Assembly (NCBI GenBank): GCA_947471985.1
Contig: CANIZL010000004.1
Span: 1 to 64,000, forward strand
DNA length: 64,000 nucleotides
Source: Verrucomicrobiota bacterium
GTDB taxonomy: Bacteria > Verrucomicrobiota > Verrucomicrobiia > Limisphaerales > UBA9464
Reading direction: 5' to 3'
Below the pieces are notes generated by a model. That model worked only from the letters and a program-made list of their open reading frames with translations. It did no database searches and had not been told where the DNA came from. A program made the translations under genes and the position numbers. Shown here piece after piece: positions 30,764-46,871 of the stretch. Each line of letters starts with the position of its first letter. The stretch's first letter is position 1.

Positions 30764-31285
30764 ATGAAGTTGCTTGCCTGGTGCCTACTTCCGCTGCTTG
30801 CGTTTCCGGCGCTCGCCGAGCCCGCGCGCATTTTTCTGATCCGCCACGCGGAGAAGCCGGAGGACCGCTCCGATCCCCACCTGACCGCCGCCGGCCGGGA
30901 GCGCGCCCACCGTTGGGTGTCCTATTTCACGAACTCGCCCACGCGCCAACCCACCATCGTGCTGGCGGCGCGGGCTACCAAAGGACATCCCAGTGTGCGT
31001 CCCGTGGAAACCCTGGAACCACTGGCGCAGGCCCTGCATTTGGAGATCCAGACACCGTTTGCCTCCAGCGATTATGAAAAGCTGGCCCATCGATTATTAA
31101 CCGCTCCGGAATTCAACGGCCGCACGGTGGCGATCTGTTGGGTGCACCAATCCATTCCGCAATTGGTCGCGTCGCTCGGGATCCGGCCGGAGCCGGGGCC
31201 GTGGAAGGACAGTGATTTCTCCGGGGTCTACCAAATCACCTTCGAAAACGGAAAGCCCCGTCTCGCGGTGACCCACACCGAGTGA
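30764..31285 (+). CDS. Secreted histidine phosphatase superfamily protein
   Basis: A 173-residue protein from the ATG at 30764 with a signal peptide (MKLLAWCLLPLLAFPALAEP). It has the branch-1 histidine phosphatase motif RIFLIRHAEKPEDRSDPHLT with catalytic RHA, followed by LTAAGRERAHRW. The second conserved histidine may be in CWVHQSIPQLV. Members dephosphorylate small molecules or proteins, and the RHAEKP variant is widespread in Bacteroidetes and Verrucomicrobia. No later acidic motif is clear. It may be transcribed together with the cyclase lipoprotein gene. Confidence 0.85.
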   Translation: MKLLAWCLLPLLAFPALAEPARIFLIRHAEKPEDRSDPHLTAAGRERAHRWVSYFTNSPTRQPTIVLAARATKGHPSVRPVETLEPLAQALHLEIQTPFASSDYEKLAHRLLTAPEFNGRTVAICWVHQSIPQLVASLGIRPEPGPWKDSDFSGVYQITFENGKPRLAVTHTE

Positions 31286-31371
31286 TTCCGCGGCGGCCCT
31301 TGGTCGGAGAAAAATCGCATTTCCGCAGTGGAAAATTTCGCCGGTTTCATCAATCCGTCATAGGGTTGGGC

Positions 31372-33840
31372 ATGTTTCTCTGGCGTGGATTTCGGGCACT
31401 CCTGGCAATGGCCGGAACGGGGGTCGTCGTTTTGGGCGCGGACCCGGAACCGACCGCGGAGGCCATCGCCCGCCTGCCGGCGGCCGTGACCCGTCCCGTG
31501 GATTTTCGGCGGGAGATTCAGCCCATCCTCGAATCCAGTTGCGTCAAATGCCACGGACGCGGGAAGGCCAACGGCGAGTGGAAGCTCGATACCCGTGAGA
31601 GTTTTCTCCAACCCGGCGAATCGGGTTCGGTGGTCGTCCCGGGCAGCAGCGCCCGCAGTCGCATCATCCATCTGGTCGCCGCCACAGATCCGGACTCCGT
31701 GATGCCGAAGAAGGGCTCCCGGCTGACCCCCGAGCAAATCAGTCTCCTGCGGGCTTGGGTGGATCAGGGCCTGCCGTGGGAACCCGGCGTGACCTTCGCG
31801 AAACCGCCGGCCAACAACCTGCAACCGCATCGCCCGACGTTGCCGGCCAATATCGCCGAGCATCCCCTCGATGGCATTCTCTCCACGTATTTCGTCGCGC
31901 AAGGACTGGCTCCGGCCGCGCGGGTGGACGACCGCCTCTTCGCCCGCCGCGTCTATCTCGACGTCATCGGACTGCTGCCCACGCCGGCGGAATTGGAAAC
32001 GTTCCTCGGGGATCGCTCGCCTGACAAACGCACCCGCCTCGTCCGGCAACTGCTCGCCGATCCCCAGCGCTACGCCCAGCATTGGTTGAGTTTCTGGAAC
32101 GATCTCCTCCGCAACGATTACAAGGGCACCGGCTACATTGATGGCGGGCGCAAGTCCATCACCACCTGGCTGTACACCGCCCTGCGGGACAATCGGCCCT
32201 ACGACCAGATGGTGCGGGAGCTGGTCAATCCGACCGAGGCCAGCGAGGGCTTTTCCAAAGGCATCGTCTGGCGCGGTACGGTCAATGCCTCGATGACCCC
32301 GCCCATGCAGGCGGCACAGAACATCGGGCAGGTGTTGATGGGCGTGAATCTCAAGTGCGCCTCGTGCCATGATTCGTTCATCGACGACTGGCAGTTGAGC
32401 GACGCCTACGGTCTGGCGGGCATCTACGCGGACAGTTCGCTGGAGATGGTCCTGTGCGACAAACCGACCGGCAAGCGCGCCCCGCTCCGATTCCTGTTCC
32501 CCGAACTCGGCGCCGTGGATGCCCAGGCACCGCGCACCAATCGACTGGAACAACTCGCCCGGATCATCACGCGCCCGGAAAACGGCCGCCTGCCCCGCAC
32601 GATCGTCAATCGCCTGTGGGCCCGGTTCCTGGGTCGCGGCCTCGTCGAACCCCTCGACGTCATGCAGAACCCGGCTTGGAATCCCGCCCTGCTGGATTGG
32701 CTCGCCGAAGATCTGGTGGAGCATCGCTGGGATCTGAAGCGGACCATGGAGATGATCCTCACGTCGTGGGCGTACCAACTGCCGTCGATCGATGTCACGG
32801 ACAAACCGGATCCGAATTTTGTCTTCCACGGCCCCGCCATTCGCCGCCTGACCGCCGAACAATTCCGTGACGCTCTGGGCTCATTGACCGGCGTATGGCA
32901 GGAGAAACCCGAGGGAGGAATCGACCGGCTGCTGCTGGAACCCGGCGATCTCAAACCGCTCCCGGTGACGCCGTTCTGGGTTTGGTCCGATGCCCACGCC
33001 GCCTCGGCCGCACCCCGCGGGACCAACTGGTTCCGGAAGGAAATCGTCCTCACCGCCCCGATGACGGAGGCCACACTTTTTGTGCACGCGGACAATTCCG
33101 CCCGGGTGTTCGTCAACGGCCAGGCAGCTCGTGGATCCGTAGCAACCGAATGGGAACAACCCAGTGTCTATGACCTGCGCGCCGCGCTCAAGACCGGCAC
33201 CAACGTGGTGGCCATCGAAGCCATTAATGGCGGCGATACCCCCAATCCAGCGGGCGTCATCGCGTATGGTCGATTGCGACCCGCCGCGGATGCGGGTGTG
33301 CGGAATTCCGACTTCGCGACGGACGCTTCCTGGCAGGTCCGCACCACTCCGACCGGCGATTGGAAAACCACCGCCGGAAGTGAGGGTTGGACGGCCGCCG
33401 TGGTGCTCGGACCCGCGGATCTCGCCCCCTGGAAACTGGGTGAGCGGCTGACGGGAACGATTGCCGGCCGGAGCATTTACGGACGCGTCCGCGCGTCGCT
33501 GACGACGGCGGATCCGCTGGCCCTGGCGCTGGGACGTCCGAACCGGGAGCAGGTCACAACGGTGCGCCCGTACACGGCGACGACCCTGCAGGCGTTGGAA
33601 CTGACCAACGGCGAAACGCTGGCCACGCTGCTACGCCGCGGCGCGGAACAATTGCTCACCACCCGCCTCGACGGACGCGCCCTCAGCGAGCGCGTCTTCC
33701 GGCAGGCGCTCAGTCGCCCCCCCACCCCGGCGGAGCTCGACCTCGCCGTGGAACTGATCGGACCGCAACCCGCCCGCGAAGGCGTGGAAGACCTGCTCTG
33801 GAGCGTGGCCATGCTGCCGGAGTTCCAACTCACCTACTGA
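31372..33840 (+). CDS. Planctomycete-type cytochrome c / DUF1549 / DUF1553 protein
   Basis: An 822-residue exported protein from the ATG at 31372 (MFLWRGFRALLAMAGTGVVV, signal peptide). The N-terminal PSCyt1-like domain has the haem motif SCVKCHG followed by DSVMPKKGSRLTPEQISLLR. DUF1549 covers about residues 165-370 (RVYLDVIGLLPTPAELETFL). Then comes ARIITRPENGRLPRTIVNRL, WARFLGRGLVEPLDVMQN and DUF1553. Between and after are beta-rich segments, one resembling a glycoside-hydrolase-associated sandwich (FRKEIVLTAPMTEATLFVHA). This family is always paired with DUF1501, as here (45-bp gap to the next gene). The pair is thought to act on sulfated or other complex polysaccharides outside the cytoplasm, but no reaction is proven. 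Confidence 0.92.
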   Translation: MFLWRGFRALLAMAGTGVVVLGADPEPTAEAIARLPAAVTRPVDFRREIQPILESSCVKCHGRGKANGEWKLDTRESFLQPGESGSVVVPGSSARSRIIHLVAATDPDSVMPKKGSRLTPEQISLLRAWVDQGLPWEPGVTFAKPPANNLQPHRPTLPANIAEHPLDGILSTYFVAQGLAPAARVDDRLFARRVYLDVIGLLPTPAELETFLGDRSPDKRTRLVRQLLADPQRYAQHWLSFWNDLLRNDYKGTGYIDGGRKSITTWLYTALRDNRPYDQMVRELVNPTEASEGFSKGIVWRGTVNASMTPPMQAAQNIGQVLMGVNLKCASCHDSFIDDWQLSDAYGLAGIYADSSLEMVLCDKPTGKRAPLRFLFPELGAVDAQAPRTNRLEQLARIITRPENGRLPRTIVNRLWARFLGRGLVEPLDVMQNPAWNPALLDWLAEDLVEHRWDLKRTMEMILTSWAYQLPSIDVTDKPDPNFVFHGPAIRRLTAEQFRDALGSLTGVWQEKPEGGIDRLLLEPGDLKPLPVTPFWVWSDAHAASAAPRGTNWFRKEIVLTAPMTEATLFVHADNSARVFVNGQAARGSVATEWEQPSVYDLRAALKTGTNVVAIEAINGGDTPNPAGVIAYGRLRPAADAGVRNSDFATDASWQVRTTPTGDWKTTAGSEGWTAAVVLGPADLAPWKLGERLTGTIAGRSIYGRVRASLTTADPLALALGRPNREQVTTVRPYTATTLQALELTNGETLATLLRRGAEQLLTTRLDGRALSERVFRQALSRPPTPAELDLAVELIGPQPAREGVEDLLWSVAMLPEFQLTY

Positions 33841-33885
33841 TTTCCCACCGATTCGCCGCCTCAATTTCCCTCCCCGTTGTCCCGT

Positions 33886-35388
33886 ATGAAGACACCCGAC
33901 TATTCCCGCCGCGATTTTGTGAAAGGCCTCAGCGCCGCAACGCTCGGCGCCCTGGCCGCCGGTTATCCCCGCCTCGCATCGGGCGCCGAAGCCTCCGCGG
34001 CGATTCCCGCCACGGCGGACACCGTGATCGTCCTCTGGATGGGCGGAGGCATGGCCGCAACGGAGACGTTCGATCCCAAGCGCTACACCGCCTTCGAGAA
34101 GGGGATGAATCCGAACTCGGTTCTCTCCACCTTTCCCTCCATTCCCACGTCCGTCGACGGCATCCGGTTCAGCGAAGGACTGGAGCGCCTCGCCCGGGTG
34201 ATGGATCGCGGCACGCTGATCCGCAGCTACACGGCGGGCGATCTCGGTTTCATCCTGCATTCCCGGCACCAATATCACTGGCACACCGGTTACGCTCCGC
34301 CGCAATCCGTCGCCTGCCCGCACATTGGCGCGATGATTTCGCGGACGCTCGGACCCAAGAACCCGGCGGTGCCCGCGTTCATCAACATCGGGCAGCGCTT
34401 CGACAACGGGGAAAGCGAAGAGCTGAAGGCCTTCAGCACCGGCGGCTTTCTCGGCAGCGAATTCGGTCCCTTCAACGTGGCGTTTCCGGATGCGGCGAAG
34501 GACGTCGTGACGCCGCCCGGCGGCATGAGTCCGGCGCGATTTGAAAACCGGGACAAATTCCTGCGCCGGCTCGCCGACGCCTCGCCCGTGGGGCAGCTCG
34601 GCAGCGGTTACCAGAAGGAGTCGTTGATCCGCTCCCTCGACAACGCGCATCGCCTGCTCGGTTCGTCGGCCGCCAAGGCGTTTGATCTGACGTTGGAAAA
34701 GCCGGAGGTCGTGGCGAAGTACGTGCCGGGCGGCTGGGATTTCAGTCGACGACTCGGCGGTGATCAGAACCGCGAAGGCAGCTACGAGAAGGCGAACGTG
34801 CAGCGCTTCGGTCTCGGCTGCCTGCTCGCCCGCCGCCTCGCCGAAGCCGGCGCGCGCTACATCGAAGTCACCACCGAATACATCCCCTTCCTGAATTGGG
34901 ACACGCACGAGCACGGCCACGAAAAGCTCGTGCACATGAAACAGGCGATCGACGGCGCGGTGTCGCAACTGGTGCTGGACCTGGAAGAACGCGGCATGCT
35001 GGACCGCACGTTGATCGTGCTCGCCAGCGAATTCAGCCGCGACATGATGCAGGAGGGCAAGCCCGACAAACCGATCACCAATCAGGTGCCGGTCCCGGAA
35101 AAGATCGAGGAGCTGACCCACTACGGCATGCACCGGCACTTCACGGACGCCGGGTGCGTGTTGATGTTCGGCGGCGGCCTCAAGCGCGGACACCTGCACG
35201 GCCTCACCGCGGACGAACGGCCCTGCAAAACCATCAAGGACCGGGTGGTGATCGAGGACCTGCACGCGAGCATTTACCAGGCGCTGGGGATTGCTCCGAA
35301 CCTCTCGTACGAGATCGAGAAGCGGCCGTTTTACGTCACCCGCGACGGCCTCGGGAAACCGATCCGCGACCTGTTCCGCGCGGGCTGA
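33886..35388 (+). CDS. DUF1501 protein (sulfatase-like fold), Tat-exported
   Basis: A 500-residue protein from the ATG at 33886 (MKTPDYSRRDFVKGLSAATL); the ORF track adds three residues from a TTG. The twin-arginine motif SRRDFVKG directs Tat export. The fold is related to alkaline phosphatase/sulfatase: VIVLWMGGGMAATETFDPK at the start, RQYHWHTGYAPPQ-like (SRHQYHWHTGYAPPQSVACP) in the middle, and LIVLASEFSRDMMQEGK toward the end, with HYGMHRHFTDAGCVLMFGG. DUF1501 genes follow DUF1549/1553 genes in PVC genomes, as here; a joint periplasmic role is likely. Reaction unknown. Confidence 0.92.
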   Translation: MKTPDYSRRDFVKGLSAATLGALAAGYPRLASGAEASAAIPATADTVIVLWMGGGMAATETFDPKRYTAFEKGMNPNSVLSTFPSIPTSVDGIRFSEGLERLARVMDRGTLIRSYTAGDLGFILHSRHQYHWHTGYAPPQSVACPHIGAMISRTLGPKNPAVPAFINIGQRFDNGESEELKAFSTGGFLGSEFGPFNVAFPDAAKDVVTPPGGMSPARFENRDKFLRRLADASPVGQLGSGYQKESLIRSLDNAHRLLGSSAAKAFDLTLEKPEVVAKYVPGGWDFSRRLGGDQNREGSYEKANVQRFGLGCLLARRLAEAGARYIEVTTEYIPFLNWDTHEHGHEKLVHMKQAIDGAVSQLVLDLEERGMLDRTLIVLASEFSRDMMQEGKPDKPITNQVPVPEKIEELTHYGMHRHFTDAGCVLMFGGGLKRGHLHGLTADERPCKTIKDRVVIEDLHASIYQALGIAPNLSYEIEKRPFYVTRDGLGKPIRDLFRAG

Positions 35389-37776: not shown

Positions 37777-40700
37777 ATGTTTGCACTTCCCTATCTACGC
37801 TTCCTGGCTGGCACCGTACTAATTGCTTCAGCCTTTAGCCCGTTGTTCGCGGCCAAACCTGAGGAGGGAGCGCCAGCAGTCGAAGCGATTGAATCGTCCA
37901 ACTCCGAAGGCGAAACCGGCCTTCCTTCCAAACTCAAGAAAATCCGTGAAGAAATTACCCGGACCGAGCACACCGAACATTCCCATCGCGAGCAATTCGT
38001 TCGACACTTCCTCGATTCCAACGGCGCCGAACTAGTCGTCACCAATACCTACACCGTTCTGGAATCCGGAATGCACTATCAGGAAGACGGTCAATGGAAG
38101 AACACGGAGGCAACCTTTGAGGAATTTCCCAGCGGTTTTGTCGCCCGCCACGGACCCCACAAAGCCATCATCGCCCGACGCCTCGGCACGCAAACCGTGG
38201 TGGATCTCCTCTCCGCCGCCGGTCACCGGCTCCAAAGTGCACCCCATTTCCTTGCCTATCAGGACAAAAACACGGGACAACAGCAAAGTCTCGCCCGAGT
38301 GCGACCTGTAGAGGGCCAACTGGTAAACCCCAATACCATTCTCTTTGAAGACGCCTTCGATGGCATCCTCGCGGATGTCAGAGTTGTCTACAAACTAGGC
38401 GGCCTTGAGTGCGATGTTGTTCTACGACAGCAGCTTCCAGATCCCACTGAGCTGGGATTGGATCCCCTGAACACAGTCTTCCAAGTCTATACGGAATTCA
38501 CCGACACGGAAGCTACCGTCGTAAACTCCGTCCAGCGGCCACGGGCCACCAAAAAGCCGCGCACGGGAGGCGAGAAATCAGGTTCAATTTCAGCACCAAA
38601 TACAGACGAGACCGATACCGATGACCTCCTGTCATTTGGCGATCTCCACCTGCCGACCGGCACGTCTTTTCCCTTGGGAAACTCCGCCGGGGCCGATCTC
38701 CCCAATGTCCGTAAAGCCTGGACCGAGCTGGATGGACGAAAATTCCTCATCGAGCAAATCGACCAGCATGAATTGGTCAAAGGCCTTACCAAGGCGTTGC
38801 CTGAGGGTGCCCAGAACAAAGCCCGGTCGCCCGGTCAGCAAAATTCCAAATTCCCGCCGCCCCTGCAACCAGCGGAACCAGCTGAAACTCAAGCAAAGTC
38901 GTGGCAGATGCGGTGCAATGAAATCGCGCTAGTCGACTCCCTGCGAACGCCTCCGGGGCAGGAAATCGTTCAATTCGACCAGAGGCCAGCCAATCCCGGC
39001 TATGTTGTCGACTGGACCCTCGTCACGAGTACCTTCGATCAATTTACCTTCGCAACTGGCCAAACCTATTTCATCAGCGGAACCGTCAATTTCCTCCCTA
39101 CCAACCCAACTTCCGGCCCCTTGGCAAACGTCCGATTCGAGCCGGATGTTGTCATCAAATACGCCCAAAACACCGCCGCCTCCATCTGCCTTTATCCTAG
39201 GACAACCGTTGATTGCGCCACGGAAATGTACCGACCGGCCCACCTCGTCCCCGTCGACGACAACACAGTGGGCGAGATTGTTTCCGGTTCGACCGGCATA
39301 GTCACCGGCACCTACGCCAATCCGGCGATCCGAATTGACGGGACCGGATCGGGATCCCCACCGGCAACCTACGGAAGTCCCCGCCTCCGTTGGCTGAGAA
39401 TCAAGAACGCAGAGCTCGGCGTCCAATTCATCCTATGCGAAAAGCCCGGTGTCATCAATTCCCAGTTTCTTAACTGCAACAATGCGTTTCGCTGCAATTA
39501 CACGATCGGCTCATCCCCGGCGATGGATGCCTTTAATTGCCTGATCGTCGGCGGCGCCAACTGCTTCTCACAGATCAATTCGTGCACGATCAACGCCTCG
39601 TGCTTGACCCTCGATATTACCGGGAGCATCAACTCGAATCCCGGAGCAAGCGCTGCCATTTGGCTGGGCAACAGCATCGTGCTCAATACCGCAGCGCTTC
39701 CCGGCAATGTCTCCGCCCCATCACCCTCAGGTAACTTCATAACTCCGTTGTCACGCAGCCAGATATTCGACTCGACAACCACAATGACCTACTGCCTGAG
39801 TCCGCTCAGCTCGACCATAATTACCGGAGTCGAGCCACCCCTATTCGGAGACAATGACATGGATTTACGAAGAGAACTATCAATTTTCAAGCCAAAACTG
39901 CTCACAGGAACCCTCTATAACCTTCCAATGATTGGCCCTTGGAATACGGCGGAAGATAAATATTTATATGCACCAGGATATCGTTACCCAGTCATCGACT
40001 ACATCATCCAGAATGCGACAGTGCCATCGGGCACACTAATCATCAAACCTGGAACGCGGATAGGCTTCAGCGGCGGGCCGGGTCTTACACTGGCGGATGG
40101 GACCAGCGTCAAAAGTTGGGGCACTGGTCCCCTGCGTGGCAGCATCCCCACGATATACAAGCCGGGAACGACCAACGTTTTTATAAGAGACACTTCAGTC
40201 GGCGAGCAATCCGCGGGATTTGCCGGATCGACAAAATCTGGAACTTACTTTACTTTGGGCGGCGCCGCCACTGTGGACTTGCGGTTTACCCAATTGATGG
40301 GTGGAACATCGCAACAAACATTGGCAGATTTCCAAGTCGCCGGAGGGGGCAGAATTAATAGTCTGTCGGTCCGCGACTGCGTTGCCTTCAAAATGGGGGT
40401 GACGATCTATAACTACAGCGCAGGCCAAAGGCAAATCATCAATTTCAAAAACAACCTGCTCTACCAGTGTTCCCTTACCGCCATGTCCGGCTATGTCTCA
40501 ACTCCTTATCCGTTGGATTTGGAATTCTCCAATAATTTAGTTTCCCAAGGTTCTGTAACCCTTACGTGGCTCGCTGGAACTGGGTCAACCTGGAACATTC
40601 GCGACAATGTATTCAGCACAGTTACCACCTCGGCGACTGGAATTCAATCCAATGGCAGTCTATCGGATGGCAATGTGCCACCTGTGTTTACCACTGCGGT

Positions 40701-43700
40701 CAGAAATAACGCTTATTATTCAACCACGGCTCTACCTCAACTTTCCCCAATCACTTTGTCGACGCTGACTTACACTTCCGGCGATGGCTGGCCGTACTAT
40801 ATTTATCACCGGGATCTGCCAAATTGTGGCAATCCGCCGGTCGTCACCATGTCCAGCTTATACAAAATGGGGAGCCGGAGTATTTCCGCCGCAGGCCTCT
40901 TCCACTACACCACGGGCAAAGTATTTGATATGATTGGCGGCTCCCGCCACGGTTGCTATGGCGTCGTAAATGACAAAGCTGGCAACAGTCCTGGCGCCAA
41001 CCCAATGACAGACCCAGTGGATATTGGACCCTATACTTACTCAAACCAGACAGATTACGACAACGATTTCCTAGCCGACGCGATTGAGGATTCAAATGGC
41101 AATGGAACGTATGAGCCGACTGTGGAGTTGTCGGATTGGACCCATACCAGTACTGACGACCCCTTCCCCCAATCTGACCCCCTTGGTGATGGCGCAGAAA
41201 TCGAATTCGGTCTGGATCCAAGAGCGGGTAATGATACCGACGGTGATGGTGCATCGGATTGGGACGAAGTTCGAGAGGGCACCAATCCAAGGAGCAATCA
41301 GCTCTCGCCGAACTACGACCCCGCCACACCCACGAGACTTTCGCTTTGGGAGTTTGACGAACAGCCCCTTCCCGGCGGCGTTTGGCTGCCCCGGGGCGGC
41401 TTGGGCTTGGACCCCAATCCCACCATTTTCGTGAACTCAATGGCATCCCTGTCAGCCAACCAGCGCGTGGAATCTTATGCCGGAACTGCGGTGTATTTTC
41501 CAGCAACACTGCCGGGGGGAGGTGCTACACAGCCCCTTGGAATTCCCTTGAACTACACCATCCCCAGTCCGGTTCAAACCGTTGCATTGGCCAGCCTTGC
41601 TCATGGAAGCATTCAATTTACGTACTCTCCGGATTGGCTCCAATCCGGTGGTACGGGTGCACCGGGCGCGTGGTGTACGCTCCTTGACGGTGGAAGCGCG
41701 ACGAGAATCTGGCGTCTCAGTATTGATCCCACCGGCACGTACGTTGTCTTTCAAACGCCCTTCGGGAGCGCCAGCCGCATCAATTTTCAAGCTACGCTTC
41801 CCCGTAATCCCGGACTCAATCCCGTCCCGAGCGGCGGGCGGGCGGTTTGGAGGCTTTCCCTCAATTACTCGTCAACCTCCTCGTCGCTTGAATTCATCCC
41901 TTCCAGTTCCGGGGACGCGTTCAAATTGCCTGTTACCACGTCCGGAGGAATCTGGCCGGGTGAAGGATTGGGGGTCGACGCGGCGAGTGTGAACACCCTC
42001 GTGGGTTTGGGCGCCAAGCTGGATGTCGGAACGGCGATCAATGGCGCCGGGCAAGCGGTTGAACCCGCCTTGGGGTGGATAGAAGATCTTGAGATTTTTA
42101 ATTGCGTCTTCTCCAATCGGATTCCGGGAGCCGATGGCTCCAAAGCAACCCCGTTTGCCAACTCCTGGAAAGACAGATTCCGGCGAATCTGGTGCGCTCC
42201 GGACCCCACGGGAGTCAAGGTGCAATTCTACCGTCACTGGGAAACCAGCTGGCCCACTACTACCGCATATGTCATCGAAAGAAGACCCTATGGGACAGCC
42301 AACTGGACCACCTTGGCTACAAATTGGCGGCAGAATACCTACATCGATACGACGGCTTCCTTAAATACGCTTTACGAGTACCGCTGTGAGCCGGACATTC
42401 GAACCGCCTATGGCGTCCGCGGAACCTATGATCCCGGCTACCGGGTGATCGTGGTGGTCGATAAGCAACTGAAGCAATGGGATACTAACACGACTGTTGC
42501 GGCCGCGGGCAGCATTGGCGCATTTAACGTCAAACTATCCGCGTATTTGGCACAGCTAAGTTTAAAGTTCGGTTCAGCCAATGTAACGACGACTCCCATT
42601 GAAGCCGAACGAATGAACGATGAGGACCCTAATTATGTCAATCCGCTAATCAATCCAACCTGCTTTATTAGCGATCCAAATCCCTCCAGCGCAAATTCGA
42701 TTTGGCGGGCAAATTGCGCTCTGGTCAAGCAAGCGATTCAAGCGGCGATTGTCCCGGGAAAAATTAATCTGGTTGTTTTGATTGGCCATGTCCCGGTACC
42801 CATGGCAGGGAACGTCACCGCCGGCGGGCATGACGAGACCAGTGGTGCAAAGGCGGCCGATGTTTGGTATGGCGATTCGCAGGCATGGGATGACTCCATC
42901 AGTACTTTCGATCCATACAACGCAGCCGACCCGGTTACTCTCCACCTCTTCGATAGTATTCCAAATACCGCCCCGGACTACCTTAGAGACATCGCCAAGA
43001 AGGTTTATGCCAATACGGCGAATGATGGCAAATGGACGAACAATGTGCTACCGAACCAATCCGACGGCAGTCCTGGCCAATTGGAAGCAGCGGTAGGACG
43101 GATTGATTTTGCCCGAATGCCCTATCACAAGCGAGCCAATGAGAGCCTGCGGCAATCAGAGCTTCGTTTGACTGCGGCCTATCTGGATAAGGTCCTTCGT
43201 TACCGCAATCAACAGTTGACGTTTTCCAAAGGCGGCTATTCATTTGCGGGTTCCGCCAGCAAGTATGACCCCAACAGCCTCTATTCCAGTTCATCGCCGC
43301 TGGACACCCCGGCGAACCTAGGAAACGTGATTGTTCCCGAGAGCTGCCTCGGCGCATTGCCCGCTGGACAGTATGTAGATCTATTCAATCCAATCATAAG
43401 TTCGGGGAAGCCAGCACGAGTATGGGGCTTCCATGGTGGATATGGAGGCGCCGATTCGATTCAAGGATATAGACAGATTCCCATTCAATCATGGCAGTTA
43501 TCTCGGGAGATTAACGACCTAGCAAGAAGGGAACCAGCGTCCGCTATTTGTATTATTTATGGTTCGTATTTTGCTGACTGGTATCCGGCTCCAGGCGGCT
43601 CAAACACTTATGACCTGAATCAGCTTATGATATCCGGTTTCATGCGAAGTGTCTTGGCGGCACCAAACAGCGGATTGGTGGTTATGTCCCTCGAGGGTTT

Positions 43701-43824
43701 CCAACCGAACTTGCGACGTGTTGGAATTGGCGCCCCGGTTGGGGTGGGGCAGATTGACTCGTTCAAGACGGACTCAAGTATTCATTATAAATCTATTTTG
43801 GGCGATCCAACTCTAACCTTTTAA
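37777..43824 (+). CDS. Giant secreted multidomain protein with C25/caspase-like C-terminal domain
   Basis: A 2015-residue protein with a signal peptide (about 1-25). Residues 60-340 are an unrecognised N-terminal domain (TNTYTVLESGMHYQEDGQWK). About 400-1080 reads as a right-handed beta-helix rich in Asn/Ser/Thr. Near 1093-1165 are calcium-binding DxDxDG loops (YDNDFLADAIEDSNGNG and NDTDGDGASDWDEVREGTNP). About 1180-1440 is lectin-like, and a fibronectin-III-like unit lies near 1480. The last 380 residues resemble the alpha/beta domain of gingipain-type C25 proteases: KINLVVLIGHVPVPM, GFHGGYGGADS (candidate His, near 1886), and CIIYGSYFADW (near 1928) where the catalytic Cys is expected. No PEP-CTERM tail. 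The PEP-CTERM gene starts 2 bp after its stop. Codon choice is more A/T-rich than in neighbouring genes. Confidence 0.8.
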   Translation: MFALPYLRFLAGTVLIASAFSPLFAAKPEEGAPAVEAIESSNSEGETGLPSKLKKIREEITRTEHTEHSHREQFVRHFLDSNGAELVVTNTYTVLESGMHYQEDGQWKNTEATFEEFPSGFVARHGPHKAIIARRLGTQTVVDLLSAAGHRLQSAPHFLAYQDKNTGQQQSLARVRPVEGQLVNPNTILFEDAFDGILADVRVVYKLGGLECDVVLRQQLPDPTELGLDPLNTVFQVYTEFTDTEATVVNSVQRPRATKKPRTGGEKSGSISAPNTDETDTDDLLSFGDLHLPTGTSFPLGNSAGADLPNVRKAWTELDGRKFLIEQIDQHELVKGLTKALPEGAQNKARSPGQQNSKFPPPLQPAEPAETQAKSWQMRCNEIALVDSLRTPPGQEIVQFDQRPANPGYVVDWTLVTSTFDQFTFATGQTYFISGTVNFLPTNPTSGPLANVRFEPDVVIKYAQNTAASICLYPRTTVDCATEMYRPAHLVPVDDNTVGEIVSGSTGIVTGTYANPAIRIDGTGSGSPPATYGSPRLRWLRIKNAELGVQFILCEKPGVINSQFLNCNNAFRCNYTIGSSPAMDAFNCLIVGGANCFSQINSCTINASCLTLDITGSINSNPGASAAIWLGNSIVLNTAALPGNVSAPSPSGNFITPLSRSQIFDSTTTMTYCLSPLSSTIITGVEPPLFGDNDMDLRRELSIFKPKLLTGTLYNLPMIGPWNTAEDKYLYAPGYRYPVIDYIIQNATVPSGTLIIKPGTRIGFSGGPGLTLADGTSVKSWGTGPLRGSIPTIYKPGTTNVFIRDTSVGEQSAGFAGSTKSGTYFTLGGAATVDLRFTQLMGGTSQQTLADFQVAGGGRINSLSVRDCVAFKMGVTIYNYSAGQRQIINFKNNLLYQCSLTAMSGYVSTPYPLDLEFSNNLVSQGSVTLTWLAGTGSTWNIRDNVFSTVTTSATGIQSNGSLSDGNVPPVFTTAVRNNAYYSTTALPQLSPITLSTLTYTSGDGWPYYIYHRDLPNCGNPPVVTMSSLYKMGSRSISAAGLFHYTTGKVFDMIGGSRHGCYGVVNDKAGNSPGANPMTDPVDIGPYTYSNQTDYDNDFLADAIEDSNGNGTYEPTVELSDWTHTSTDDPFPQSDPLGDGAEIEFGLDPRAGNDTDGDGASDWDEVREGTNPRSNQLSPNYDPATPTRLSLWEFDEQPLPGGVWLPRGGLGLDPNPTIFVNSMASLSANQRVESYAGTAVYFPATLPGGGATQPLGIPLNYTIPSPVQTVALASLAHGSIQFTYSPDWLQSGGTGAPGAWCTLLDGGSATRIWRLSIDPTGTYVVFQTPFGSASRINFQATLPRNPGLNPVPSGGRAVWRLSLNYSSTSSSLEFIPSSSGDAFKLPVTTSGGIWPGEGLGVDAASVNTLVGLGAKLDVGTAINGAGQAVEPALGWIEDLEIFNCVFSNRIPGADGSKATPFANSWKDRFRRIWCAPDPTGVKVQFYRHWETSWPTTTAYVIERRPYGTANWTTLATNWRQNTYIDTTASLNTLYEYRCEPDIRTAYGVRGTYDPGYRVIVVVDKQLKQWDTNTTVAAAGSIGAFNVKLSAYLAQLSLKFGSANVTTTPIEAERMNDEDPNYVNPLINPTCFISDPNPSSANSIWRANCALVKQAIQAAIVPGKINLVVLIGHVPVPMAGNVTAGGHDETSGAKAADVWYGDSQAWDDSISTFDPYNAADPVTLHLFDSIPNTAPDYLRDIAKKVYANTANDGKWTNNVLPNQSDGSPGQLEAAVGRIDFARMPYHKRANESLRQSELRLTAAYLDKVLRYRNQQLTFSKGGYSFAGSASKYDPNSLYSSSSPLDTPANLGNVIVPESCLGALPAGQYVDLFNPIISSGKPARVWGFHGGYGGADSIQGYRQIPIQSWQLSREINDLARREPASAICIIYGSYFADWYPAPGGSNTYDLNQLMISGFMRSVLAAPNSGLVVMSLEGFQPNLRRVGIGAPVGVGQIDSFKTDSSIHYKSILGDPTLTF

Positions 43825-43826
43825 TT

Positions 43827-44498
43827 ATGAGAATTACGATGAAGTGTTGCTGCCTTCTTTTGTTTTCACTGCCATCCCGGGCCACGGATTTCGTCAACTT
43901 GGATTTTGACGATCCGAATCTGACAAATCTCGCTTTTTATAATACACCACCGTTCGGCGAGCGTCGACTTTACGGCCCGATTCTTGATTTGCTCAGAGGA
44001 TGGTCGGTTACAGAGGGAGGCAAGCCCTATTCGGGATTGATGGCCTATTCGGTGGCTCCTGATGGGGGGGGGGTATTTCCGAGCGTCCAAATGGCGCTTG
44101 CAGTGGGCACTTATACAATAGGAAAATATAATATCGAGTTTGCCTCAATCAGGCCTCCGCAGCGACCTGGATTGGAACCGCTCGACATGGTAATTTCCCA
44201 GGTCGGAACCGTGCCGGCAGATGCCTACTACTTGACCGGAATTGGTGGAACCTTTGCCGCAATCAACGGCAGCCCCCTGACGGTAACGCGTCCTTATGAT
44301 TTTTTGATACCCTTCTGGGATGTGCACGAGTACGCCGGCAAGGAAGTTACCTTAAGTTTCACTTTTCACGGTAATGGCAATTACGATCTGGCGGTACTGG
44401 ACATTGTCGGTTTTACCACTCCCGAGCCATCGACGTGGGCACTTCTGGCGGTCGGGACCCTGATACTGGGCGTTGGCTGTTTGCCCCGAAGACGATGA
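43827..44498 (+). CDS. PEP-CTERM sorted secreted protein, copy 1
   Basis: A 223-residue protein with a signal peptide (MRITMKCCCLLLFSLPSRAT). The body is a beta-rich, lectin-like domain (DFVNLDFDDPNLTNLAFYNT, GWSVTEGGKPYSGLMAYSVA, DVHEYAGKEVTLSFTFHGNG). The C-terminus is a complete PEP-CTERM signal: PEPSTWALLAVGTLILGVGC followed by LPRRR, the substrate of an exosortase that releases or anchors extracellular-matrix proteins. No exosortase lies in the window. It follows the giant gene by 2 bp and is surely co-transcribed with it. A paralogue of identical length lies at 45445. An array of inverted repeats starts 86 bp downstream. Confidence 0.9.
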   Translation: MRITMKCCCLLLFSLPSRATDFVNLDFDDPNLTNLAFYNTPPFGERRLYGPILDLLRGWSVTEGGKPYSGLMAYSVAPDGGGVFPSVQMALAVGTYTIGKYNIEFASIRPPQRPGLEPLDMVISQVGTVPADAYYLTGIGGTFAAINGSPLTVTRPYDFLIPFWDVHEYAGKEVTLSFTFHGNGNYDLAVLDIVGFTTPEPSTWALLAVGTLILGVGCLPRRR

Positions 44499-44520
44499 GG
44501 CACGGGGCGGGAACTGCCCC

Positions 44521-44590: not shown

Positions 44591-45307
44591 ATACCTGATC
44601 GATGGGTGATTCGAGCGTGCATTCGGCTCGTACGTCGGTCTCCAAAGCGTCAGAGGACTGCCGCAGTCCAAAACCTGGCGGAATCCTCCCACACGTGAGA
44701 AGTCGCGAAAGCGTCTTGGACTGCGGTTGTCCCCTACCGCTTTGGAATGGGGCGTTAACAAACCCAACGCGCACCGAAACGTTCAACGCCAGTCCGCATG
44801 GAGAGCTCGACATCCGTCCGGCTCGTACGTCTGTCTCCAAAGCGTCAGCGGACTGCCGAAGTCCAAAACCTGGCGGAATCCCACCCGCCGCGAGAGAAGT
44901 CGCGAAAGCGTTTTGGACTGCGGTTGCCCCCTACCGCTTTGGAATGGGGCGTGAACAAACCCAACGCGCACCAAAACGTTCAACGCCGTTCCGCTGGGAG
45001 ATCTCGACGTCCGTTCGGCTCGTACGTCTGTCTCCAAAGCGTCAGAGGACTGCCGCTGTCCAAAACCTCGCGGTATTCCCCCGGCCGCGAGAGACGTCGC
45101 GAAGCGTTTTGGACTGCGGTTGTCTTCTACCGCTTTGGAATGGGGCGTGAACAAACCCAACGCGCACCGATACGTTCAACGCCGGTCAGCTGTGAAAGCT
45201 CTACGTCCATCCGGCTCGCACGTCTGTCTCCAAAGCGTCAGAGGACTGCCGCAGTCCAAAACCTCGCGGAATTCCCCCCGCCGCGAGAGACACCGCGAAG
45301 TTGTCAG
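44584..45307. repeat. Array 1 of about 195-bp inverted-repeat units
   Basis: The array opens with GTCGGCAATACCTGATC (44584) and holds units whose GGCTCG landmark falls at 44625, 44820, 45017 and 45213, giving periods of 195-197 bp; the fourth unit is a half unit. In each full unit a left arm of about 35 bp (44641-44675 in unit 1, with CCGCAGTCCAAAACC) pairs with a right arm (44712-44746, with GGACTGCGG and CGCTTTGG) with about five mismatches. Inside are two smaller hairpins (GGCGG/CCGCC and CGCGA/TCGCG in some units). The array ends at CGCGAAGTTGTCAG. All three frames are largely open on both strands, but the reading is repeat-derived and is not called coding. Confidence 0.85.
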
Positions 45308-45320
45308 ACCCGGCTGGCAC

Positions 45321-45442
45321 AACCAAAATTTGCCGCAGGTCGGGATTGGTGCTCCGGTTGGCGTGGGCCAGATCACTCGTTCAGGGTGCACCCAATTATT
45401 CTTTATAAATTCATTCTGAGCGATCCAACTTTGACCTTCTAA
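45321..45442 (+). pseudogene. Duplicated 3' end of the giant gene (frameshifted)
   Basis: This 122-bp piece copies the last codons of the giant gene. One frame gives VGIGAPVGVGQI, as in the giant protein, then a frameshift moves the match to another frame ending ILYKFILSDPTLTF against SIHYKSILGDPTLTF. The TAA and the two bases before the next ATG are also conserved. It is the left edge of the tandem duplication that produced the second PEP-CTERM gene, and has no start of its own. Confidence 0.85.
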
Positions 45443-45444
45443 TT

Positions 45445-46116
45445 ATGAGGTATACAAAGAAGACCTATTGCTTGCTTCTGCTGTCACTGCCAACCCTGGC
45501 CAAGGATTTTGTCAATTTGGATTTTGATGATCCTATTTTGACGAATATCGCCTACTATACCCCACCCCTAAACAGCGGACGGCGACTTTACGGCCCAGTC
45601 GAGGATTTGCTAAGAGGTTGGACGGTTACCGAGGGAGGCAAACCCTATTCGGGATTCATGGCCTATTCGGTCGGCCCCGATGGGGGCTTGGCTTTTCCAG
45701 GCCTCCAGATGGCACTAACGGTGGGCAATTATACCATCGGGAAATACAATATTGAGTTTAGGTCATTTAGACCCCCGGAGCGGCCGGGATTGGATCCGCT
45801 CAACATGACCATTTCGCAGATTGGAACTGTGCCGGCGGGCGCCTACTATTTGACTGGAGTCGGTCGAGGACTTGCTTCGATCAACGGCATCCCGCTGACA
45901 GAGACGCGTCCTTATGATTTTCTGCTACCCTTTTGGGATGTGCACGAATACGCTGGCAAAGAGGTCACCTTAAGTTTTGAATTTCACGGCGACGGCGAGG
46001 GCAGCGTAATGCCTCTTGATATTATCGGTTTTACTGCGCCCGAACCATCGACGTGGGCGCTGCTGGCGGTCGGGTCCTTGGTATTGGGCGTCGGCTGTTG
46101 GCCCCGAAGAAGATGA
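45445..46116 (+). CDS. PEP-CTERM sorted secreted protein, copy 2
   Basis: A 223-residue paralogue of the gene at 43827, alignable without large gaps: DFVNLDFDDPILTNIAYYTP, GWTVTEGGKPYSGFMAYSVG, DVHEYAGKEVTLSFEFHGDG. The signal peptide is MRYTKKTYCLLLLSLPTLAK, and the sorting signal PEPSTWALLAVGSLVLGVGC plus WPRRR is intact. The reading frame is open and both signals are kept, so it should be functional, but its natural promoter upstream has been replaced by array 1 and the giant-gene fragment. An array of repeats begins almost directly after its stop. Confidence 0.9.
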   Translation: MRYTKKTYCLLLLSLPTLAKDFVNLDFDDPILTNIAYYTPPLNSGRRLYGPVEDLLRGWTVTEGGKPYSGFMAYSVGPDGGLAFPGLQMALTVGNYTIGKYNIEFRSFRPPERPGLDPLNMTISQIGTVPAGAYYLTGVGRGLASINGIPLTETRPYDFLLPFWDVHEYAGKEVTLSFEFHGDGEGSVMPLDIIGFTAPEPSTWALLAVGSLVLGVGCWPRRR

Positions 46117-46120
46117 GACG

Positions 46121-46871
46121 CGCAGAGACACCCAGCGGACTTAGGTCGGCAATACCTGATCGACGGGTGATTCGGGCGCGCATTCGGCTCGCACGGTTGC
46201 CGGCCAAAGCGTCAGAGGACTACCGCAGTCCAAACCCTGGCGAATTCCCCCCCCCGCCGCGGGAGAGGTCGCGAAGCGTCGTGGACTGCGGTTGTCTTCT
46301 ACCGCTTTGGAATGGGGCGCTAATAAACCCAACGCGCACCGATACGTTCAACGCCGGTCAGCTGTGAAAGCTCTACGTCCGTCCGGCTCGTACGTCTGTC
46401 TCCAAAGCGTCAGAGGACTGCCGCAGTCCAAAACCTGGCGGAATTCCCCCCCCGCCGCGTGAGAAGTCGCGAAAGCGTCTTGGACTGCGGTTGTCTTCTA
46501 CCGCTTTGGAGTGGGGCGCTAACAAGCCCAACGCGCACCGAAGCGTTCAACGCCGGTCCGCTGGGAAAGCTCGACGTCCGTCCGGCTCGTACGTCTGTCT
46601 CCAAAGCGTCAGAGGACTGCCGCAGTCCAAAACCTGGCGGAATCCCCCCGCCGCGTGAGAAGTCGCGAAGCGTCGTGGACTGCGGTTGTCCCCTACCGCT
46701 TTGGAATGGGGCGCTAACAAGCCCGACGCGCACCGAAACGTTCCACGCCGTTCCGATGGGAAAGCTCGACGTCCGTCCGGCTCGTACGTCTGTCTCCAAA
46801 GCGTCAGCGGACTGCCGCAGTCCAAAACCTGGCGGAATTCCCCCCACCGCGAGAAGTCGCGAAGGTGTCAG
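46121..46871. repeat. Array 2 of about 195-bp inverted-repeat units
   Basis: The array starts 5 bp after the PEP-CTERM stop with the leader CGCAGAGACACCCAGCGGAC and GTCGGCAATACCTGATC (46145-46161). GGCTCG landmarks fall at 46186, 46385, 46584 and 46779 (periods 199, 199, 195), and the last unit is again a half unit ending CGCGAAGGTGTCAG (to 46871), the same right end as array 1. Each full unit keeps the long inverted arms (CCGCAGTCCAAAAC against GGACTGCGG and CCAAAGCG against CGCTTTGG). C-tracts of seven to nine bases (for example at 46248-46255) vary between units. Confidence 0.85.

Follow-up and report, generated by a model that had tools for sequence, protein, structure and literature searches.

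Peptidase family C25 (PF01364) is represented by gingipain RgpB (1CVR, 4IEF), an enzyme with a two-subdomain fold. In gingipain K (Kgp) the catalytic residues are C477, H444 and probably D388, and one structural calcium is bound in the N-terminal subdomain, with another at the subdomain interface (PMC6426963). Serine at the catalytic cysteine site is known from other cysteine-protease folds. The pseudo-orthocaspases are bacterial caspase-like pseudoproteases in which His and Cys are replaced mostly by Tyr and Ser (PMC6426788). SERA5 of the eukaryote Plasmodium is a papain-fold protein with Ser at the catalytic Cys site that, unlike the domain described here, retains the remaining putative triad residues; it is essential in a non-enzymatic role (PMC4671257).

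The window analysed here is a stretch of 64,000 nucleotides from the genome of a Verrucomicrobiota bacterium (contig CANIZL010000004.1). It encodes a giant protein whose C-terminal domain is probably a catalytically dead peptidase C25 module of gingipain fold, a pseudoprotease that ends a presumably exported protein. The family of this domain resembles RgpB in the two-subdomain fold, in the sD..Y, GR and terminal GDP motifs, in the placement of the nucleophile loop and in a beta-sandwich-like (FN3-type) stretch that lies C-terminal of the domain in most homologues. It differs by Ser in place of Cys, by the absence of the catalytic His and by a strict conservation that has moved to the N-terminal subdomain, into which a W.D...N..DGkfD segment is inserted. 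The Tyr/Ser pair of the window protein is that of most pseudo-orthocaspases, which are its closest precedent, but these possess a caspase p20 domain instead of C25 and are linked neither to giant extracellular proteins nor to PEP-CTERM partners.

The giant protein and the relation of its C-terminal domain to family C25

The giant protein of 2015 amino acids is encoded by an open reading frame on the forward strand (37777..43824; its parts given below lie on the same strand); judged from the sequence, its N-terminal residues, MFALPYLRFLAGTVLIASAFSPLFAA (37777..37854), are likely a signal peptide. Residues 59-2013 align with a similar giant protein of another genome, G009 (28% identity, E 4e-145). 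The sole Pfam match across the entire protein is a bacterial TSP3 repeat at residues 1153-1171 (41233..41289; PF18884, 25.4 bits, above the cut-off). Immediately N-terminal of the C25-like domain, the sequence pattern suggests a fibronectin-III-like stretch (42181..42399), for which Pfam gave no match. The C25-like domain itself comprises the approximately 470 C-terminal residues (about 42400 to 43821), and its last residue is the end of the protein. An earlier note on this DNA had located the domain correctly at the C-terminus, at 42770-43824, but its extent is longer than given there.

All three motifs named in that note were found where it had placed them in the reading frame. The first one (residues 1665-1676, 42769-42804) falls into the conserved core of the N-terminal subdomain, LIGHxxxP..G...AD.wYGD..W.D...N..DG...VGRIDF (42769..43110). 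The second is GFHGGYGG (residues 1884-1891, 43426..43449) and the third is IIYGSYFADW (residues 1926-1935, 43552..43581), which contains Ser1930 (43564-43566). The protein terminates with the C25-type motif GDPTLTF (43801..43821).

Searches with the window domain alone failed to reveal its relationship: no relevant Pfam match was obtained, PF01364 did not match in the window's own genome, and neither phmmer nor a profile search of PDB sequences with the window domain found C25. NCBIfam yielded no match among 29 family members, and PHROGs gave none either. The C25 link was settled only by the family-wide alignment and by a better structure model of another member. PF01364 was matched by 19 of 29 family members and subsequently by 46 of 71 at E<=0.001, several of them above the gathering score; where a position was given, the match spans the first subdomain (model positions ~43-130). 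A comparison of the family with 20 true C25 domains taken from related genomes by hhalign resulted in Prob 95.9 and E 5e-9.

The AlphaFold2 model of the window domain, calculated with 29 sequences, reached a pLDDT of 74.6 and a pTM of 0.84, and Foldseek detected no significant PDB match for it. Its top non-significant matches by probability were to TPR-CHAT of Craspase, followed by several weaker ones to separase, caspases and legumain-type proteins, all clan CD-like folds. A canonical member of the family (L103, model m8d8bbc009b61, 71 sequences) was modelled with a pLDDT of 94.6 and a pTM of 0.94, and gingipain RgpB was the only PDB match below E 0.001 (4ief, 1cvr; E 3e-10 to 2e-9, probability 1.00, TM 0.51-0.55). 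The high-confidence model thus is that of L103, which is ~28% identical to the window domain, and the fold is transferred to the latter by sequence homology. The window domain scores 332 bits against the family profile, of which it is itself a row; independent support for its membership comes from pairwise matches of 28-36%. That the resemblance is not due to chance is shown by the PF01364 matches, the hhalign score and the exclusive fold match to RgpB. We therefore predict the gingipain two-subdomain fold for the family, as the earlier note had proposed, and regard the window domain, on the grounds of sequence, as homologous to peptidase family C25, the link to PF01364 being established via the family alone.

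Active site, conservation and descent of the family

When 56 members of the family were aligned jointly with 20 C25 domains and no register was imposed, the GHG motif of C25 fell on the family's GxG motif, which reads GYG in the window domain, and the nucleophilic Cys on Ser; the register obtained by hhalign was identical. Ser1930 hence occupies the nucleophile position, as had been suggested for the GSYFADW motif, no Cys is present at that site, and Tyr1889 is found at the site of the catalytic His. The His of GFHGG was considered as the catalytic one and was ruled out, since in both alignments the GHG of C25 corresponds to the later GYG. The region of Kgp Asp388 was poorly aligned, and the window domain has no clear acidic counterpart there. 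The alignments indicate that the Cys/His dyad is lost in the window domain.

The replacement extends over the family. Among 90 homologues in which the nucleophile column is filled, 89 have Ser and a single one (L092) has Cys; in the reduced set Ser is found in 55 of 55 sequences, compared to Cys in 20 of 20 true C25s. The aromatic position after Ser is Trp in 52 of 55 sequences of the reduced set, and the Gly before Ser is largely conserved. At the catalytic His column, in contrast, 20 of 20 C25s have His, while the entropy within the family amounts to 2.76 bits, the 58th percentile of its columns, and no conserved His was detected across the family alignment at the C25 His position, nearby or at the FHGG position. 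Alignment of homologues, recommended in the earlier note, thus identifies the GSxxx(D/E/N/Q)W proteins, by sequence, as a large family of their own that was previously unnamed. In a divergent branch (L083, L085-L087, L091) the Ser is kept, the GxG loop at the His site is gone, and the Ser is followed by GYW or GFW in most members.

Strict conservation appears to have moved to the N-terminal subdomain. In the family, 22% of the columns of this subdomain and 9% of those of the C-terminal subdomain have an entropy below 1 bit, compared to 13% and 10% in C25, a rough comparison of 55 with 20 sequences. D1695, D1706, D1750 and R1775 are invariant and Y1698 and D1777 nearly so; D1695 and R1775 are common to C25, while D1706 and D1750 are specific for the family. 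A near-invariant His is part of a DGH motif in this subdomain, which is not that of the nucleophile. Whether the Asp cluster binds calcium is a guess.

The family is widespread. The window's genome harbours a second copy (33% identity; L002/L113), 84 of 194 related genomes have a match, and a search with the family profile identified matches in 32 of 388 genomes of the phylum, in several classes. One homologue is present in a metagenome-assembled genome of Saprospiraceae (L003, a single locus from the scan of genome contigs); read by eye, its C-terminal end resembles a T9SS sorting domain. In the phylogenetic tree, a quick one with long branches, the 55 rows of the Ser family are on one side of a branch with an SH-aLRT of 93 (99 for the C25 set), and a single change from Cys to Ser is required. 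Three proteins (L092, L131, L132) share the segment of the N-terminal subdomain (cDlFY.DldG.W.D...GkyD) with the family and differ from it in that they have kept SHGY and VCSG(C/S)DY. Judged by their sequences, they probably represent an active sister group that retains His and Cys. Of these, the tree held L092 only, and its exact placement is unsure because it is a long branch and the sole row of this group.

A family-wide replacement of the catalytic Cys by Ser usually is the sign of an enzyme that was turned into a binding or structural module. The earlier note had left the choice between an inactive module and a Ser nucleophile; our data favour the former, since the Ser is invariant while the His position varies freely, a combination that speaks for a pseudoprotease and against a serine protease. 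An active serine hydrolase or transpeptidase nevertheless has to be considered as an alternative, with Ser1930 as nucleophile and other conserved residues in place of the lost His. Catalytic residues may have migrated, and candidates are Asp or His residues of the N-terminal subdomain or the Asp/Glu that precedes Trp1935. An invariant Ser, its mostly conserved Gly and Trp neighbours and the near-invariant His of the DGH motif would fit such an enzyme, but this His sits in the other subdomain, none is conserved where C25 or the FHGG motif has one, and no clan CD peptidase is known to work with Ser. In SERA5, moreover, the Ser protein had no detectable peptidase activity, and replacement of the Ser by Ala was without effect (PMC4671257). 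We therefore consider a serine enzyme unlikely. Quite improbable is also the more specific assumption of a new class of C25-fold enzymes with Ser1930 as nucleophile and relocated partners, for example a transpeptidase or esterase that would join surface proteins or act on the PEP-CTERM partner. Both the pseudo-orthocaspases (PMC6426788) and SERA5 (PMC4671257) illustrate that Ser at the Cys site is compatible with a role that is non-enzymatic or presumed to be so.

The PEP-CTERM partner and the neighbourhood of the gene

The start codon of the next gene, which codes for a PEP-CTERM protein of 223 amino acids (43827..44498, forward strand), is located 2 nt past the stop codon of the giant gene. 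Against PF07589 the protein scores 20.6 bits, which is just below the cut-off; the genome scan gave 23.3 bits. In comparison with the PEP-CTERM/exosortase system (PMC1569441), the partner carries a tail of the PEP-CTERM type and four exosortase homologues are encoded in the genome, whereas the giant protein itself lacks a PEP-CTERM tail; 16 PEP-CTERM matches, including both of the window, were found in this genome. A homologue of the partner immediately follows a family member in G007 (+4 nt), G009 (-4), G026 (+5), G052 (-1), G174 (+14) and G179 (+121), so that, with the window's genome (G000), the gene pair is present in seven genomes. By chance far less than one case would be expected (a rough estimate from ~30 partner hits and genomes of ~5 Mb). 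Ten other genomes have both genes in non-adjacent positions or on different contigs, and many family members have no adjacent PEP-CTERM gene. Scans for promoters and terminators remained at chance level. The linkage to a PEP-CTERM protein that the earlier note had pointed out thus is real and evolutionarily conserved; the joint surface role which it derived from this linkage is what we, too, infer.

In relatives of genus g3 (L007, L008, L010, L012, L014, L017-L019, L021, L023, L025) the downstream gene codes for another conserved protein (ETPDILSLTWTNGRPSLEFRL) instead of a PEP-CTERM protein, and the neighbour of the C25-like gene therefore varies by lineage. Upstream in the window (31282-35388), the genes for a PSCyt1/DUF1549/DUF1553 protein and, after it, a DUF1501 protein form a pair that planctomycetes and verrucomicrobia typically have.

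Positions 43720-44499, i.e. the 3'-terminal 105 nt of the giant gene and the partner gene, are duplicated at 45339..46117 on the forward strand (76.7% identity), which gives a 3' remnant of the C25-like gene and a second PEP-CTERM gene (45445-46116). The remnant (45339-45444) has a disturbed frame and ends with SDPTLTF. The copies are set apart by an array of ~197-nt repeats. Two such arrays (44611-45290 and 46204-46864), each with ~3.5 copies of 197-199 nt and internal inverted arms, lie on either side of the second PEP-CTERM gene and may have mediated the duplication. This truncated duplicate, 1.6 kb downstream, and the presence of Thr1688 and Lys1692 in the window copy, where relatives have His and Trp, could be taken to mean that the giant gene is decaying and that its protease has simply rotted. 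Given that the frame of 2015 codons is intact, that the Ser motif is retained in nearly all homologues across classes and that other genera retain the giant form and its partner, we consider this very unlikely.

Possible role of the domain

It is extremely unlikely that the likeness to C25 is superficial and that the domain has another Rossmann-like fold, as the unsuccessful searches with the window domain and its own model might suggest, because Pfam, hhalign and Foldseek all indicate C25 for the family, which shares with C25 its terminal GDP motif and the core of sD..Y and GR.

For the favoured pseudoprotease, the most likely function is that of a secreted dead C25 module that binds or scaffolds at the surface together with its PEP-CTERM partner. 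The giant protein would be exported, and its C-terminal domain would bind a peptide or glycan ligand or the PEP-CTERM partner, the binding site being either the former substrate cleft or the conserved N-terminal subdomain. Without cleaving anything, it could then serve in adhesion or as part of a scaffold, either at the cell surface or in the matrix. The main unexplained fact is the invariant Ser, which would be odd if it were chemically idle, because a purely structural site might tolerate Ala or Gly. It is possible that it has a structural function in the nucleophile loop, contacts a ligand or is part of a rebuilt active site.

In the open-access literature we found no paper on a C25 pseudoprotease family, on pseudo-gingipains, on C25 in this phylum or on the gene pair, which is weak evidence of novelty. 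Many members match the Pfam C25 model, so that studies of environmental metagenomes risk annotating them, and counting them, as gingipain-like extracellular peptidases. The present analysis defines a broad C25-fold pseudoprotease family. Its dyad was presumably lost just once, and a living sister group still possesses it, which makes the family a natural case for the study of the conversion of a secreted protease into a binding module. The Ser that is strictly retained without the His poses a puzzle that can be tested, and the fact that PEP-CTERM proteins recur as partners offers a handle on the role of exosortase-sorted surface proteins in these bacteria.
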